Origin: Geoglobus acetivorans
GTDB lineage: Archaea > Halobacteriota > Archaeoglobi > Archaeoglobales > Archaeoglobaceae
Length of the DNA: 64,000 nucleotides
Direction: 5' to 3'
Assembly: GCF_039641995.1 (NCBI RefSeq)
Contig: NZ_CP087714.1
Coordinates: 1,364,001-1,428,000 of the forward strand
A program made the position numbers and the translations under genes. The notes beneath the pieces are model-generated. The model worked only from the letters and a program-made list of their open reading frames with translations, was not told the DNA's origin and searched no databases. Positions 3,879-39,517 of this stretch are shown piece after piece (the first letter of the stretch is position 1; the number at the start of each line of letters is the position of its first letter).

Positions 3879-4388
3879 TCACCCCTCCAGAAAACTTATT
3901 GCATCGCTTGGGCAGTTCTCTCTGCATGCTACACAGAGTATCCTGTTCTTACCGTATCTTCTGCACCTCTGGACGTTGATTATTTTAAGCACCCCATTTT
4001 CCAGCCTGTAAATGGGATCGTCGATTTTCGGTCCAAACCCGCTTCCCGATCCGTAGGCATCTTCTGCTGCGTGCACAGGGCACACAACAATGCAGTTTGC
4101 ACATCCCGTGCATTTGCTTTCATCGACAATCAGTCCTGTTTCACTTGCCTCTTTCAGGGGTTCGAGCATTTCAAGGAGCTGTTCTTTTTGTTTTGTGTAT
4201 TTTTCCTCTTCAAAAAGAGGTGTGCATTCTTCTATCTGCTTATCTCTGTTGACAACCTTGAAGGCAAAGGCCATGCACGTTTGCTCGCCGCATTTCTTGC
4301 AGTTGGTTTTCGGTAAAAGTTTGTAAATCTCCATTGGTGTGATCGGCATTGAAGAGAGTAGGTTTCTTAATAATTTAACGTTTCGCAT
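3879..4388 (-). CDS. Polyferredoxin-type Fe-S subunit associated with formylmethanofuran dehydrogenase
   Basis: About 169 residues. The N-terminal third is an Fe-S domain of the type found in CdhE/AcsC (PF04060-like: CKKCGEQTC, then a fourth Cys in 'EECTPL'). The C-terminal part holds two ferredoxin clusters (CTGCANCIVVCP and CVACRENCP, with an extra 'QRCRRYG'). Placed first in the fwdB-fwdD operon, it probably passes electrons to or from the dehydrogenase, the job of FwdF/FwdG in methanogens, although the domain order differs. The start is uncertain: an ATG at 4388 is used here, a TTG at 4406 is in frame, and neither has a strong ribosome site. Confidence 0.75.
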   Translation of the reverse strand: MRNVKLLRNLLSSMPITPMEIYKLLPKTNCKKCGEQTCMAFAFKVVNRDKQIEECTPLFEEEKYTKQKEQLLEMLEPLKEASETGLIVDESKCTGCANCIVVCPVHAAEDAYGSGSGFGPKIDDPIYRLENGVLKIINVQRCRRYGKNRILCVACRENCPSDAISFLEG

Positions 4389-4440
4389 TTTTGAATCTCT
4401 AATCAATAGTCATTATGGTGGGAGAAAAAAACAATGAAAA

Positions 4441-4458
4441 CATTTATAAAAATGTAAT
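4441..4458. promoter_or_regulatory. Shared TATA box of divergent fwd and pgi genes
   Basis: A near-symmetric ATTTATAAAAAT element lies in the 67-85 bp between the divergent genes. Read on the plus strand it places the transcript start at or next to the pgi ATG (4474), making that mRNA leaderless. Read on the minus strand (TTTTTATAAAT) it predicts a start near 4419 for the fwd operon. The box is seen directly; use in both directions is inference. Confidence 0.5.
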
Positions 4459-4473
4459 TTAAAATAACAGACC

Positions 4474-5184
4474 ATGAAACCGGTGGTAGATTTTGAAAGA
4501 TTCAAGCCCGATATCAGATACGCTTACGATTTAAAACCGGTTTTGCGTCAGCCTGATGAACTTAAGGATAACTTTCCGGCATATTTCATGTACAGGGATG
4601 CTTATTTAACCGGAGAGGATTGGGAGAAGATAAAAGAGGCAGGTTTGAGATATGACTACACTATAACTCCTCCAGCAGTTATCGGGGACGAGTACATAAA
4701 GACCTATGGCCACTACCACCCCAAGGCTGGAAAACTCAGCTTTCCTGAAGTTTATCAGGTCATTGAAGGAAAGGCGCTTTTTATAATTCAGAAAAGGAGC
4801 AATGAGGATGATCAGATTGAAGATGTTGTGGCTGTGGAGGTTGAAGAAGGAGAGATCATAATTGTTCCTCCTGAATATGGTCATGTTATGGTAAACAGAA
4901 CTGACAGGAGGCTGGTAACCTCCAACTGGGTTTGCAGGAATTTCAGTTCGATTTACGAGCCATATACCAATCTCAGAGGCGCGTGCTATTATCTGACCCG
5001 GTTGGGATGGGTGAAAAACACGAATTATGCTGCGGTCCCTGAATTAAGGTTCGCCAGGCCCAATCAGATTCTTGATGTATCCGGGGACATGTATGACCTC
5101 GTAAACGAGATTGAAGTGCTTGAATTCCTCGCTGACCCGGATGGGTATGAAGATATGTTCAAAAAAGCTTTAAAGTTCGATTAA
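4474..5184 (+). CDS. pgiA: Glucose-6-phosphate isomerase, archaeal cupin type
   Basis: 236-residue metal-dependent isomerase interconverting glucose-6-phosphate and fructose-6-phosphate, unrelated to the bacterial/eukaryotic enzyme. The single cupin barrel shows GHYHP (H80, H82), 'FPEVYQV' with E92, and H137 in 'VPPEYGHVMVN', the expected metal ligands. Homologues in Pyrococcus and Archaeoglobus use Fe/Ni/Mn. The start ATG lies 25-30 nt behind a TATA box, so the gene is probably leaderless. Its last 15 bp overlap the convergent nadE gene. Likely role here is gluconeogenic sugar-phosphate supply, as complete glycolysis is usually lacking in this order. Confidence 0.93.
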   Translation: MKPVVDFERFKPDIRYAYDLKPVLRQPDELKDNFPAYFMYRDAYLTGEDWEKIKEAGLRYDYTITPPAVIGDEYIKTYGHYHPKAGKLSFPEVYQVIEGKALFIIQKRSNEDDQIEDVVAVEVEEGEIIIVPPEYGHVMVNRTDRRLVTSNWVCRNFSSIYEPYTNLRGACYYLTRLGWVKNTNYAAVPELRFARPNQILDVSGDMYDLVNEIEVLEFLADPDGYEDMFKKALKFD

Positions 5185-19274: not shown

Positions 19275-20681
19275 ATGAAAAATTACGATGCGATAGTAAT
19301 CGGTACCGGTTCAGGCATATCCATTGCAAACAAACTCCTCAGAGATATACCTGATGCAAGAGTTGCAGTTATTGATAGGGATAAACCCGGCGGAATATGC
19401 CTTACGAGGGGTTGCATACCATCCAAGCTTGTAATTTCTCCGGTGGAGGTTCTTCATGACATTGAACGGCTGTCCGGACTTATTGAGGTTAAGGACATTC
19501 GGGTAAACTTCAGAAGACTTATGGAGAGGATGAGGGAAAAGGTGGGCAGAGAAAGCAGCATGATCGAGAGATCGCTTGGAGAGAGGGAAAACATTGATTA
19601 TTTTAAGGAAGAGGCATCTTTTACTGGGCCATACAGGTTAAAGGTAGGTGGGGAGGAGATCACCTCAAAGAAGATCTTTATCGGCTCAGGATCAAGGCCC
19701 ATGGTGCCGGAAATAAAGGGGTTGAGAAATGCAGGTTATCTGACAAGCGACACGCTGCTTGAGCTTGAAGACATGCCAGAAAGCATGGTCATCGTTGGTG
19801 GGGGATATGTTGCGGTAGAATACGGAAACTTCTTTGCTCGGGCTGGTTGTGATGTGAAAATAGTTGAAATGATGCCCCGCATTCTTTCAAACGAGGAGCC
19901 TGAAATTTCTCGAATCGTGCAGAAAGAGCTCTCTAATCATGCAGAGCTGTTTACATCACATAGGGTTACAGGCGTTGAAAGAAATGGAAATGTCAAGCGC
20001 GTCGTTGCGGAAGGCCCTGATGGGAGAGTAGTGGTTGAAGGTGAGGAAATACTCCTGGCGGTGGGCAGAGAATCCAACTCCGACATTCTGAAACCTTGGC
20101 TGGGTGGAATAGAAACGGATGAGAGAGGGTGGATAAAGGTCAACGAATTTCTTGAAGCTTCTGTTCCGGGCATTTACGCAATAGGGGATGCGAACGGGAA
20201 ATACATGTTCAGACATGTGGCAAACAGAGAGGCAGCCATTGCCTATGCGAACGCCTTTCATGATGCCGGAGTGAAAATGGACTATTCTGCAGTACCTCAT
20301 GCTGTTTTCACTCAGCCAGAGGTTGGAAGTGTTGGTATGACTGAGAAAGAGGCTGTGGAGAGATTTGGCAGGGAGAACATCCTGATAGGATTCGAGGAGC
20401 TGAAAACTACTGGAAAGGGCCTTGCCATGAATTCAACAGGGTTTGCCAAGGTGATTGTTCACAGAGAGACAGGAAAAATTCTCGGAGGCCATATTGCAGG
20501 TAAATCTGCATCGGTACTTGTTCAGGAAATTGCCACACTCATGGCTCTCGATGCCACATATCATGCCGCACTACATGCGCTGCATATCCACCCATCGCTC
20601 AGCGAGGTTGTAAGCTGGGCATTCGGCAACCTCATGAGCGTTGAGGAATATCACCGGCTGATGGAAAAACTTGGCTACTGA
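19275..20681 (+). CDS. Dihydrolipoamide-dehydrogenase-like flavoprotein disulfide reductase
   Basis: 468-residue FAD/NAD(P)-dependent disulfide oxidoreductase. FAD site 'GTGSGISIANKLL' near the N-terminus, redox pair 'CLTRGC' (C-x4-C), NAD(P) site 'GGGYVAVEYGNFFA', second FAD site 'GIYAIGDANG', and C-terminal interface 'HIHPSLSEVV' with the catalytic His. No lipoyl-dependent 2-oxoacid dehydrogenase genes are adjacent, so the electron acceptor is unknown; mercuric- or CoA-disulfide-type activity is possible. AAATATATTTTT about 26 nt upstream predicts a leaderless mRNA. Ends 7 bp inside the convergent radical SAM gene. Confidence 0.85.
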   Translation: MKNYDAIVIGTGSGISIANKLLRDIPDARVAVIDRDKPGGICLTRGCIPSKLVISPVEVLHDIERLSGLIEVKDIRVNFRRLMERMREKVGRESSMIERSLGERENIDYFKEEASFTGPYRLKVGGEEITSKKIFIGSGSRPMVPEIKGLRNAGYLTSDTLLELEDMPESMVIVGGGYVAVEYGNFFARAGCDVKIVEMMPRILSNEEPEISRIVQKELSNHAELFTSHRVTGVERNGNVKRVVAEGPDGRVVVEGEEILLAVGRESNSDILKPWLGGIETDERGWIKVNEFLEASVPGIYAIGDANGKYMFRHVANREAAIAYANAFHDAGVKMDYSAVPHAVFTQPEVGSVGMTEKEAVERFGRENILIGFEELKTTGKGLAMNSTGFAKVIVHRETGKILGGHIAGKSASVLVQEIATLMALDATYHAALHALHIHPSLSEVVSWAFGNLMSVEEYHRLMEKLGY

Positions 20682-21802
20682 CAGCACTGCTTTACGCCGT
20701 AAATGTTGCACATCACAGGATCGCAGCCAAGAATGTCTCCGCAGTACATCAAAGCCCGGTATCTGCAGCCTCCCCTGCATTCATCCACATACTGGCATGA
20801 GCATTCAAGTTCATCGAGTCTCCAGATGTAGGTTCTCTTCAGGTTCTCCCAGCATTTTATGAGACCGTCTCTGATATTTCCACATGGTTCTTCAAAAAAC
20901 CCGCATTTTACAATGTTGCCTTCAGGGTCCATTTCGCAGTAATGAGTGCCGCAGGCATATCCCTGAATGCTCGGATAGCTTCTTTTTCCAAAGCCGTAAT
21001 TCTGAAGCACCTCCTTTATACTGTCTGGGGGTGGCAGCATGTCTTTTTCCGTAACGGGAACATCGATGCTCCACCTGTAGACATTCAGGCTTTCAAGAAC
21101 TCTGCTCATTCTTTCAAACTCGTTTATGTTGTACTTTGTGACCATTGTGGCAACGCTAACATCTACGCTTCCAGAGAGGGATTTGATGACATCTATGGGT
21201 TTTTCCCATCCGGCATTTCTCAGCGTTCGGTGTCCTTCGAATCCGTCCAGGCTGATCTGGACTTCATCAACGAGTTCTGTGATTTTATCTATTCTGTCAT
21301 CATTCAGGAGGTATCCGTTCGTCATAAGGACTATTCTGAACGGGTATCTGCGGGCGTGTTCCAGTAGAGTAAAAATTTTCGGGTGAAGCAGTGGTTCTCC
21401 ACCTGAGATAAGCAGTTTAAGTCCGCCGATACTGTAAAACTCATCAATTGCTTTCTTGAACGTGGTTTCATCGATATGGGAAGTATTCTGAAGAATATAG
21501 CAGTGCTGGCATTTAAGGTTGCAAGAGTGTGTTACGGAAATGAGGAAATGCCGTAGCGATGGTTCGCTCTGCTCCACATACACGTTTTCTTTCTTTTCTG
21601 AATTGACTTCAAGAATCCCTTCTGAAATCAAAAAATCCAGGATTTCTCTATCAGCTTCTCTTTCGCTTCCGTCACAGCTCAATAAAAAATAGAAAGCTTC
21701 ATTATCGAGTTCATACAGGGTGTCGCTTTTTGCATTGTAAGCGTAGTAATCACTGCCGAACTTCCTCAGCAGGATCCTTTCTGCAAGCCTGAGATGCTGC
21801 AA
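20675..21802 (-). CDS. Radical SAM/SPASM peptide-modifying enzyme with PqqD-like N-terminus
   Basis: 375 residues. Residues about 5-70 resemble a PqqD-type peptide-recognition domain ('LYELDNEAFYFLLSCDG', 'LDFLISEGIL'). The radical SAM core has C94-x3-C98-x2-C101 (CNLKCQHC) and 'LISGGEPLLHP'. A Cys-rich SPASM tail (from about 275: CGTHYC, KCGF, CSCQYVDECRGGC, CDPVMC, CC) would bind two auxiliary [4Fe-4S] clusters. This architecture is that of PqqE/sactisynthase-like RiPP maturases. The TTG start at 21802 follows GGAGGAGATAGAG and overlaps a Cys-containing small ORF by 53 bp. A role in heme-d1 or AdoMet cofactor chemistry is an alternative. Confidence 0.85.
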   Translation of the reverse strand: MQHLRLAERILLRKFGSDYYAYNAKSDTLYELDNEAFYFLLSCDGSEREADREILDFLISEGILEVNSEKKENVYVEQSEPSLRHFLISVTHSCNLKCQHCYILQNTSHIDETTFKKAIDEFYSIGGLKLLISGGEPLLHPKIFTLLEHARRYPFRIVLMTNGYLLNDDRIDKITELVDEVQISLDGFEGHRTLRNAGWEKPIDVIKSLSGSVDVSVATMVTKYNINEFERMSRVLESLNVYRWSIDVPVTEKDMLPPPDSIKEVLQNYGFGKRSYPSIQGYACGTHYCEMDPEGNIVKCGFFEEPCGNIRDGLIKCWENLKRTYIWRLDELECSCQYVDECRGGCRYRALMYCGDILGCDPVMCNIYGVKQCCQ

Positions 21803-21980
21803 ACTCTATCTCCTCCAGCGTCAGTTTACCCGTTTCAACAAAATATTTCAGAACTCTGTAGCCAGCGCATTCAAGAGTGTCTCCGGGTTTATAGAAATCA
21901 CAGGCCCTGCAGATTGCGGTTCTGTAATCAATCTCAGCATGAGTCTCCACACTTGCAGATGCCCGTATCTCTCCTCTCAA
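21750..21980 (-). CDS. Small Cys-containing protein upstream of radical SAM enzyme (candidate substrate)
   Basis: 76 residues if the TTG at 21980 is used (GGTGAG five nt upstream). Four Cys: 'CRACDFYKPGDTLEC' (C-x2-C-x9-C) then a helical stretch ('KLTLEEIEFAASQAC'). Its end overlaps the radical SAM gene by 53 bp, showing tight co-expression. It could be the peptide substrate, a metal-binding partner, or a fused leader. A GTG at 21950 is another possible start. Family not recognised. Confidence 0.55.
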   Translation of the reverse strand: MRGEIRASASVETHAEIDYRTAICRACDFYKPGDTLECAGYRVLKYFVETGKLTLEEIEFAASQACRKDPAEEVRQ

Positions 21981-21996
21981 CTTTGCTCACCTTCAT
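21934..21996 (-). CDS. 20-codon Cys-rich ORF with strong ribosome site (candidate precursor peptide)
   Basis: ATG at 21996 follows GGTGAT with a 4-nt gap (22001-22006), the same spacing used by strong genes elsewhere in this window. The product ends 'TGICKCGDSC'. It overlaps the 76-residue ORF in a different frame. Either it is a tiny peptide cistron, or it is the true N-terminus of the Cys protein joined by a frameshift, or its ATG lies there by chance. The predicted transcript start from CTTATATAG (22027-22035) is very close to the GGTGAT, which weakens the case. Confidence 0.35.
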   Translation of the reverse strand: MKVSKVERRDTGICKCGDSC

Positions 21997-22103
21997 ATCG
22001 ATCACCCAATTAACTGCGTTAAGAAACTATATAAGTCTTTTTATTAAAAAAAGATGTCTATTTATCATCGAGTAATACTTTATTTTACATTCTTGTTACC
22101 ACA

Positions 22104-37635: not shown

Positions 37636-38169
37636 TCATTTTTGTTCGTTAATTATGGTGCAGGCTTTTCTCAGCACATCTCTCACTTCGCCCCTTTTCC
37701 AGAGTCCCCCAAGTCTGAAGGCCGTTTTTCTTATGCTTCCTGTCCTGAGAAAGAGTTCGAGTATTTTCCTTTCCTCATCGTTAAGCCCATCACTCTTCAA
37801 AGCCTTTTTTGCAATCTCCATTAAGTCTGAGTTTTTGTAGTGCAGTTCTGCCGGGTTTACCGGGGTTTTGAAGGGTGTAAACTCGAATTCTATAAGATAC
37901 AGGTTCTCTTCCTGGGAGTAATACTGTTTCAGCTCCTCAAGAAGCTCATCTGCGCTTGAAAATCCCTCCTTTCTGGCAATCTCATCATCTATCTCGCTGA
38001 AGCTGATTTGCCTTATGTTCTTTATTCTTGCCTTACCGATGATCTTTCCTCCGCTATGCACGTAAACCAGTTCTTCAGGTTTTACATAGACTCTCTTTCT
38101 GATTGTGGATGTTTTTTCACCATTTAACAGCTTTTCAGCAAATTTCCTCTTGAATTCCAGGTGTTTCAT
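37636..38169 (-). CDS. ASCH-domain protein with C-terminal helix-turn-helix-like region
   Basis: 177 residues. Residues 1-100 are an ASCH (PUA-like) domain ('LEFKRKFAEKLLNGEKTSTI' then 'VYVHSGGKIIGKARI'), which in other proteins binds RNA or acts in nucleotide hydrolysis. The C-terminal 60 residues look like a three-helix DNA/RNA-binding unit ('EERKILELFLRTGSIRKTAF'). Its ATG overlaps the stop of the upstream radical SAM gene. An RNA-related role is plausible. Confidence 0.7.
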   Translation of the reverse strand: MKHLEFKRKFAEKLLNGEKTSTIRKRVYVKPEELVYVHSGGKIIGKARIKNIRQISFSEIDDEIARKEGFSSADELLEELKQYYSQEENLYLIEFEFTPFKTPVNPAELHYKNSDLMEIAKKALKSDGLNDEERKILELFLRTGSIRKTAFRLGGLWKRGEVRDVLRKACTIINEQK

Positions 38170-39311
38170 ATCTCCTCCCCTAAGTATGTTCCGTCTTTTG
38201 ACCTGATTATTCTGAATTTGACGTGTTCTCCTACCTGCTTGTTTGTTATCACCGTAACAACTCTGTCCTTAACCACGGCAATTTTCTCACCAAAATTTCT
38301 GCCATCCATGATGATTTTTCCCGTGTACGTCTGTCCTTTTTTGATCTCTGACGGGTATCTTTTCCTCTTTTCTATTCCGAAATCTTTTGGACTGAGGACG
38401 AGTTTTACTCCGTACTCCTCCTCCCACTCTCGCAGTCTGTCGTAGAATGTTCTGAAAGACATCACGTGCCTGAGTTTCCGCCCTCCTCTGTAAGGTATGT
38501 ACTTCTGTATGCCAAGAGGTGGCCATTTCTTGCCGGCACCAATGTCCAGGGCGAACTCAATTATCTTTTCGATATCTTCGTCATTGACTCTGGGAACCCA
38601 TACTGGTGCAATGAGTAGGTCTATTTTGCTGCTTGCAATCGTCTCGGCAACGTTTTTGACTTTCTCCACCGGATACCTCACTCCGTATATCTCTCTGGCT
38701 CTCTCCTCGTCGAGCGTGCTTATGCTGAGATTAATCCTGTCAATTTTTCCCTCAAGACTGTTGATTGCACCCACACTCAGAAGTGTTCCATTCGTCTGGA
38801 CGGAGATTACTTCGGTCTCTCTAACTGATCTGAGTTTTTCCACAAGTTCTGTAAAATATGGATACAGTAACGGTTCTGCCTGTCCATCAATATGGGCTTC
38901 TACACCCTCTCCCTTGAATCCGGCGACCTTCGAATACCATTCGGCAAGATAATCCGGATCGATTATGTAGTCGTTAGCCTTGGTTTTGGTCCCTCTGCCC
39001 TCATCAACACTGCAGAAAATGCAGTTGAGGTTGCACCCTGTTATCGGTCGTATCTGGAGGAGGTTTGTCCCTCTATCTATGATTCCAAATGCGGCATGTC
39101 CCAGCAGAGGCACTCCTGACTGCGCTGAGATATAATACAGGTTCCGTTTTGTGGTATGGTGTATTATCCTCTTTTCGTCAGAATACTGTATTATTTCCTC
39201 CTTCGAGTATTTTCTGCTCAGTCTCTCGTAAATTGATTTTTCTATTCTTATTTCTATAATCCTTCTCAGCAGAAAGACCTTCTCTCCATTTGATTCATAC
39301 TCGCTTATCAT
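38166..39311 (-). CDS. Radical SAM protein with C-terminal TRAM domain (COG2100-like)
   Basis: 381 residues. Radical SAM cluster motif 'CNLNCIFC' (C-x3-C-x2-C) near residue 94, 'AHIDGQAEPLLYPYF', and a C-terminal TRAM domain of about 60 residues ('KKGQTYTGKIIMDGRNFGEK') that usually binds tRNA. The pair with an ASCH protein downstream and a winged-helix protein upstream (4-bp overlaps on both sides) suggests an RNA-modifying module. Substrate unknown. Confidence 0.82.
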   Translation of the reverse strand: MISEYESNGEKVFLLRRIIEIRIEKSIYERLSRKYSKEEIIQYSDEKRIIHHTTKRNLYYISAQSGVPLLGHAAFGIIDRGTNLLQIRPITGCNLNCIFCSVDEGRGTKTKANDYIIDPDYLAEWYSKVAGFKGEGVEAHIDGQAEPLLYPYFTELVEKLRSVRETEVISVQTNGTLLSVGAINSLEGKIDRINLSISTLDEERAREIYGVRYPVEKVKNVAETIASSKIDLLIAPVWVPRVNDEDIEKIIEFALDIGAGKKWPPLGIQKYIPYRGGRKLRHVMSFRTFYDRLREWEEEYGVKLVLSPKDFGIEKRKRYPSEIKKGQTYTGKIIMDGRNFGEKIAVVKDRVVTVITNKQVGEHVKFRIIRSKDGTYLGEEI

Positions 39312-39517
39312 GCTTTCTGCTTTTTAAGTACTTCAAAGCCCTTTTCTGTAAGTTTGTATGCCTCTCCCTCTTTGTTAATAAAATTCTGCTCCACAAGTCT
39401 TGCAATAACACTTTCAAGCATCTTTTCGGGAATTCGGACTGATTTTTTTATCGAGGTGAAATCCATTTCTCCGTGTTCAAGCAGTGCCAGTACTCTGAGC
39501 ATGTTTCCTGAAAGCAT
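39308..39517 (-). CDS. Small winged-helix protein
   Basis: 69 residues forming one winged-helix unit ('MLRVLALLEHGEMDFTSIKK', 'LTEKGFEVLKK'). First gene of a three-gene coupled set with the radical SAM/TRAM and ASCH genes. Possibly a DNA-binding regulator of the set. Divergent from cobS over 55 bp. Confidence 0.68.
   Translation of the reverse strand: MLSGNMLRVLALLEHGEMDFTSIKKSVRIPEKMLESVIARLVEQNFINKEGEAYKLTEKGFEVLKKQKA

Follow-up and report, generated by a model that had tools for sequence, protein, structure and literature searches.

Which molecule does a radical SAM/SPASM enzyme modify when two small cysteine-containing frames overlap immediately upstream of it? The question is posed by a stretch of 64,000 nucleotides from the archaeon Geoglobus acetivorans (the window), where three overlapping minus-strand ORFs lie in series: a 20-codon ORF (21996-21934), a 76-codon frame, here called ORF2 (21980-21750), and a 375-codon radical SAM gene (21802-20675). 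An earlier note on this DNA had proposed that one of the small ORFs, or a frameshift fusion of the two, encodes the substrate. Apart from the PqqD-like N-terminal segment, taken up below, the features on which it built were all recovered, namely the CxxxCxxC motif of the enzyme (CNLKCQHC) with a long Cys-rich tail that the alignment shows to be a full seven-Cys SPASM domain, the four Cys of the 76-codon ORF and its 53 bp overlap with the enzyme gene, and a GGTGAT 4 nt before the ATG of the 20-codon ORF. The comparison with relatives that the note had recommended showed that both small frames are conserved. The evidence below makes the 20-residue peptide the probable substrate of the enzyme. 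The window genome, a single 1.9 Mb contig, contains one copy of the enzyme and one copy of the peptide gene, with no copper gene beside the latter.

The enzyme (20675-21802, minus strand; 375 aa) is read from a TTG start with a GGAGG Shine-Dalgarno site 9 nt upstream (21812-21816, minus strand). Its radical SAM core cysteines are C94, C98 and C101, and the SPASM cysteines (284, 300, 334, 336, 342, 346 and 365) follow the spacing CX15C with G-x4-C, CxC or CxxC-x5-C-x3-C and a final C, with every Cys present. Pfam detected only the radical SAM core (PF04055, E=9e-19), and the Pfam PqqD model did not detect the N-terminal domain. In the AlphaFold (AF2) model of the enzyme (pLDDT 88.9) residues ~1-75 adopt a b-b-b-a-a topology. 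Whole-length Foldseek searches returned CteB, SkfB and SuiB as the best PDB matches, which are RiPP maturases with an N-terminal RRE, and a profile search placed CteB (5WGG) first with E=2e-18, with PqqE (6C8V) also among the matches. By fold and profile the enzyme is thus closest to the RiPP maturases CteB, SkfB, SuiB and TigE. With no match of the N-terminal domain to the PqqD sequence model, the PqqD-like label that it had been given draws on topology and fold only, and we describe the modelled domain as RRE-like.

No named NCBIfam radical SAM equivalog could be assigned, as the best, TIGR04055, scored 88.9 against a cut-off of 500; identity with PqqE (60.6 against 381) or MftC (60.8 against 265) was likewise rejected. 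A contig scan for relatives returned only other radical SAM proteins, ~21-39% identical, none with the peptide or ORF2, and a viral scan likewise found no radical SAM protein accompanied by either.

The 20-codon ORF (21934-21996, minus strand) encodes MKVSKVERRDTGICKCGDSC followed by TGA. Read directly from the DNA, the GGTGAT at 22001-22006 (minus strand) is a Shine-Dalgarno-like site, and a TATA-box-like TTATATAG (22027-22034, minus strand), ~31 nt 5′ of the ATG, is a candidate promoter of the three-gene operon. Every one of the 16 Archaeoglobaceae loci whose upstream DNA could be read contains the ORF with the core Gx-C-K-C-xx-S-C, and essentially all have a GGTGA-type site before the start. 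Their consensus is M[KR][VI]xKVxxRxxG[IV]CKCxx[ST]C(A), in which K5, C14, K15, C16 and C20 are invariant; C-K-C...C is also invariant across 32 peptide sequences of a family that spans 19-22 residues with three Cys. Differences among the 16 loci at codon positions 1, 2 and 3 number 205, 154 and 501, as is typical of a translated frame. A DNA pattern for the core with its stop codon has a single match in the window and none in 100 shuffles, and the peptide motif was not found in 1.39 Mb of unrelated radical SAM loci and control loci. CKC patterns seen in other methanogens (L200-L204) were dropped, as they lie inside unrelated frames. Judged by its conservation, coding signature, unlinked paralogues and co-occurrence with the enzyme, the 20-codon ORF is a real gene. 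An encoded precursor with a conserved leader (~MKVSKVERRDT in the window) and core (GICKCGDSC) near a modifying enzyme is the arrangement expected of a RiPP. NCBIfam searches with the peptides gave only a weak, non-significant SbtA match (E=0.13), and the SCIFF model did not match them.

The phylogenetic distribution links this peptide to the machinery. The enzyme was found in 17 of 55 genomes of one family (f1). Across the phylum, 24 of 393 genomes gave an ORF2 match; 23 of these are credible, each with ORF2 adjoining a radical SAM gene of the same type, and the remaining match, a weak one in G074 (E=6.5e-4) with internal stops, was judged false. Among the genomes with ORF2, one belongs to a different family within the class, two to a different family within the order, and several to a second order. 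Pattern searches followed by profile searches recovered the peptide in the same genomes as ORF2, often as unlinked copies (for example MKIAKVGRRKTGICKCHSSCA, MKVVKVRKVKKGICKCHTSCN and MKVEKVKKNESYGTCKCHRSCM), which number one to three per genome in Archaeoglobi and a second archaeal order and mostly carry GTCKCHSSC. Judging by an FpoO neighbour in L295, Methanosarcina-like and Methanoperedens-like archaea probably belong to the second order. At E<1e-5 the peptide profile matched 24 of 24 machinery-positive and 0 of 21 machinery-negative genomes, a result that is partly circular because this set overlaps the training set, the profile having been made from many of the same peptides. An independent sample of 150 genomes from the order of G336 gave the same association out of sample: 29 genomes contained both peptide and ORF2, 119 neither, and two drafts were discordant, one with ORF2 only (G420) and one with the peptide only (G414). 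Fisher's test gave p=1e-28, and p=7e-26 after removal of four training genomes, both values ignoring relatedness.

ORF2 and the enzyme travel together; the peptide gene moves independently. Where it adjoins the machinery it lies either 5′ of ORF2 and the enzyme gene (the window, L318-L322) or 3′ of the enzyme gene (L128, L324). In the order of G336, where its consensus is M[KT]IxKIKKxxRGTCKCHSSCA with one to three copies per genome, it is sometimes just 5′ of ORF2, sometimes 3′ of the enzyme gene and often far off. Archaeoglobi stand-alone copies look leaderless by sequence, with a TATA-box-like TTATACATTT ~26-33 nt 5′ of the ATG and no ribosome-binding site (L195, L186, L198, L199), in contrast to the operon copies with their ribosome-binding site.

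Around 42 stand-alone peptide loci, rhodanese was the commonest neighbour family (9 of 150 neighbours compared with 0 of 149 control neighbours), and rhodanese regular-expression markers were present at 12 of the 42 loci and at 0 of 20 controls. Any copper or thiol marker was found at 21 of 42 loci compared with 0 of 20 controls (p=3e-5), with markers defined as regular expressions and an enrichment inflated because many of these related loci are orthologous; P-type ATPases by themselves were not significantly enriched near the stand-alone copies (p=0.16). In the Archaeoglobaceae a TM-anchored rhodanese lies directly 3′ of the peptide on the same strand (L145, L195, L196; more distant in L199), and in family f36 a predicted lipoprotein rhodanese gene converges on the peptide gene in five genomes (L291, L296, L301, L309, L315), as in L291, where the rhodanese occupies 4164-4559 (minus strand) and the peptide lies at about 4112 (plus strand). 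The pairing thus recurs in two geometries, convergent in f36 and same-strand in the Archaeoglobaceae. Copper-type P-ATPases, HMA, TRASH regulator, thioredoxin-like and DUF326-like genes lie near some stand-alone copies, and in L354 genes for CopA and an HMA protein are followed by the operon itself. Other neighbours are mixed: F420 oxidoreductase, FpoO, NrpR, pyruvate kinase and methyltransferases. Since the loci are related, the markers are regular expressions, the ATPases alone are non-significant and other neighbours are unrelated to metals, a thiol, metal or sulfur function of the product is a hint that we hold tentatively.

These neighbours bear on an alternative in which the peptide is an unmodified metallothionein-like chelator, and the enzyme either acts elsewhere or makes a small cofactor from the peptide, as PqqE and MftC do. 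CKCHxSC does resemble a soft-metal ligand set, some copies adjoin copper ATPases, TRASH regulators and DUF326-like proteins, and PqqA and MftA, as reviewed (PMC8326336), are just as short. Against this, the peptide co-occurs strictly with a radical SAM enzyme of a peptide-cross-linking fold, and no conserved downstream gene for cofactor formation, a peptidase or dehydrogenase for instance, was found. A consistent cofactor-biosynthesis neighbour of the enzyme, the observation that the earlier note had named as contrary to a peptide substrate, was not found around the 21 machinery loci; beyond local synteny, ORF2 alone is conserved beside the enzyme gene. We therefore regard the chelator or cofactor alternative as unlikely and favour the peptide as the substrate that is modified.

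ORF2 is the other small frame that could have encoded the substrate. In the window it is assigned to 21750-21950 (minus strand; ICRACDFYKPGDTLECAGYRVLKYF...), with an uncertain start, either GTG at 21950 or TTG at 21980. It was found directly 5′ of every radical SAM gene for which upstream DNA was available, with the signature ICxxCDFYKPGDxLECAAFKILKYLIE... in its conserved C-terminal 45-60 residues. An ATG for ORF2 lies 3′ of the peptide stop in L011, L013, L016, L019 and L024. In L016 and L019 ORF2 occupies the peptide's own frame behind the peptide stop, and in L023 and L024 a spacer precedes a start of its own. In these four loci the frame is either closed upstream of the start or identical with the peptide's frame after the stop. 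On this comparative evidence the 76-codon frame is a real gene, separate from the peptide. In L012 (1311-1538), L017 and L018 no ATG or GTG start lies behind the peptide stop, so translation of ORF2 must begin there either within the peptide ORF or from a non-canonical codon, which suggests translational coupling. The AF2 model of ORF2 is a small helical protein (pLDDT 73); a fold search with it returned nothing, and no sequence match was found in Pfam, NCBIfam or the PDB.

Small size, conserved Cys and a constant position directly 5′ of the enzyme gene would suit ORF2 as the modified substrate, with the peptide as a second substrate or by-stander. However, conservation of ORF2 extends over its whole length, as in a folded protein, and ORF2 is normally single-copy and tied to the enzyme, whereas it is the peptide that shows a leader/core pattern, variable outside the core, and whose stand-alone genes multiply only in genomes with the enzyme. 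A substrate role for ORF2 thus seems improbable. The proposal that a small ORF supplies the substrate therefore stands for the 20-codon ORF, and ORF2, normally single-copy and always adjoining the enzyme, is better read as an accessory protein. Two genomes contain two ORF2 genes each, G430 (contigs C6 and C199) and G445 (contigs C76 and C147), hinting at duplicated maturation loci.

The 20-codon ORF might also be a regulatory leader peptide, a Cys-sensing attenuator of the operon rather than a product, given its position, its length, its Cys codons just 5′ of the operon and an overlap with ORF2 that suggests translational coupling. Yet copies that converge on a rhodanese gene (the five f36 loci) or lie 3′ of the enzyme gene (L128, L324) cannot be leaders, and conservation extends beyond the Cys codons to the Lys between the cysteines, the G, the S and the basic N-terminus; with stand-alone copies that have no downstream target gene, a Cys-sensing leader was rejected as very unlikely. 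Finally, a +1 frameshift joining the 20-residue peptide to ORF2 into one larger Cys-rich substrate, as the earlier note had also considered, would fit an ORF2 frame that, in the window and in some relatives, continues open across the peptide ORF, but it fails and is extremely improbable, since the separate starts described above (L016, L019, L023, L024) indicate two products and ORF2 is absent near most other peptide copies.

With the peptide as the preferred substrate, the locus would be a three-gene RiPP operon whose precursor comprises a short basic leader (MKVxKVxxR, with K5 nearly invariant) and a C-terminal core of 9-10 residues, G-x-C-K-C-(H)-x-S-C. The leader may be held as a beta strand by the RRE-like domain while the core enters the barrel, where SAM cleavage would generate a substrate radical. 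By the model of characterised thioether-forming maturases (PMC8326336), a Cys thiolate, perhaps one ligated to an auxiliary cluster, would capture this radical, so that SAM and the auxiliary clusters together would cross-link the core, most likely through one or more Cys thioether bonds; for the thioether chemistry itself we consider the chances evenly balanced. ORF2 would act as an obligate small partner protein that may shape the complex or carry metal, and the unlinked precursor copies in many genomes would be served by the same enzyme. No conserved peptidase or exporter was found around the 21 machinery loci, which together with the near-invariant core argues against an antibiotic; the product would most likely stay in or near the cell as a thiol or soft-metal (copper-type) or sulfur-handling peptide.

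The nearest analogues are the CteB-type, PQQ and bufferin systems, and the wider field of RiPPs and radical SAM enzymes is already known. The SCIFF/ranthipeptide pair CteB/CteA includes the closest solved enzyme by profile and fold, and shares a Cys-rich substrate, a radical SAM and SPASM architecture, an N-terminal recognition domain (here the predicted RRE-like one) and wide conservation within a clade, which argues against an antibiotic role. The present enzyme is only ~20% identical to CteB and shorter (375 aa), and its precursor has 19-22 residues with three Cys, whereas SCIFF has six Cys in about 45 residues; it also differs in its motif, its archaeal host, its dispersed genes and the accompanying ORF2. 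PqqA/PqqD/PqqE and MftA/B/C likewise combine a very short precursor, a small partner protein and a radical SAM/SPASM enzyme, but here there is no PqqD by sequence model, there are no downstream cofactor genes, the core has no Glu/Tyr or Val-Tyr residues and several precursor copies can occur per genome. Unlinked precursor genes served by one modifying enzyme are familiar from the prochlorosins, where ProcM, a lanthionine synthetase, acts on dispersed ProcA genes with long leaders and hypervariable cores; the present core, in contrast, is nearly invariant. Bufferins are MNIO-modified, Cys-rich, copper-chelating RiPPs (PMC12452194) that share Cys peptides, a modifying enzyme with a partner protein, some stand-alone precursor genes and a link to copper homeostasis, and differ in using an MNIO rather than a radical SAM enzyme, in being bacterial, in export by a Sec signal peptide and in their much longer precursors (PMC12452194).

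Neither the peptide nor ORF2 is described in Pfam, NCBIfam or the non-subscription literature that was searched, and the peptide seems to represent a family of modified mini-peptides not described before. Archaeal RiPPs are little explored, and 20-codon genes escape annotation pipelines. A precursor family and an accessory-protein family, both lacking a database model, accompany the enzyme across two archaeal lineages. That the precursor is near-invariant and dispersed points towards housekeeping as its role. The system may, as a possibility that falls somewhat short of probable, represent an undescribed archaeal RiPP class in which dispersed precursors of ~20 residues, a family among the smallest of its kind, are served by one radical SAM/SPASM enzyme and an uncharacterised partner, yielding a cross-linked CKCHxSC product for thiol/copper or sulfur homeostasis and not for competition. 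With so short a precursor, the enzyme, its partner and its substrate would form a minimal, probably heat-stable system for studies of radical peptide cross-linking.

Two further genes of the window were recorded. A convergent FAD/NAD(P) disulfide-reductase-like gene with a CLTRGC motif (19275-20681, plus strand) overlaps the end of the enzyme gene by 7 bp at its 3′ end and adjoins the operon in 4 of 21 loci, probably as local synteny. A second radical SAM gene of a different type (38000-39323, minus strand) encodes ~385 aa with a GCNLNCIFCSVDEG motif.
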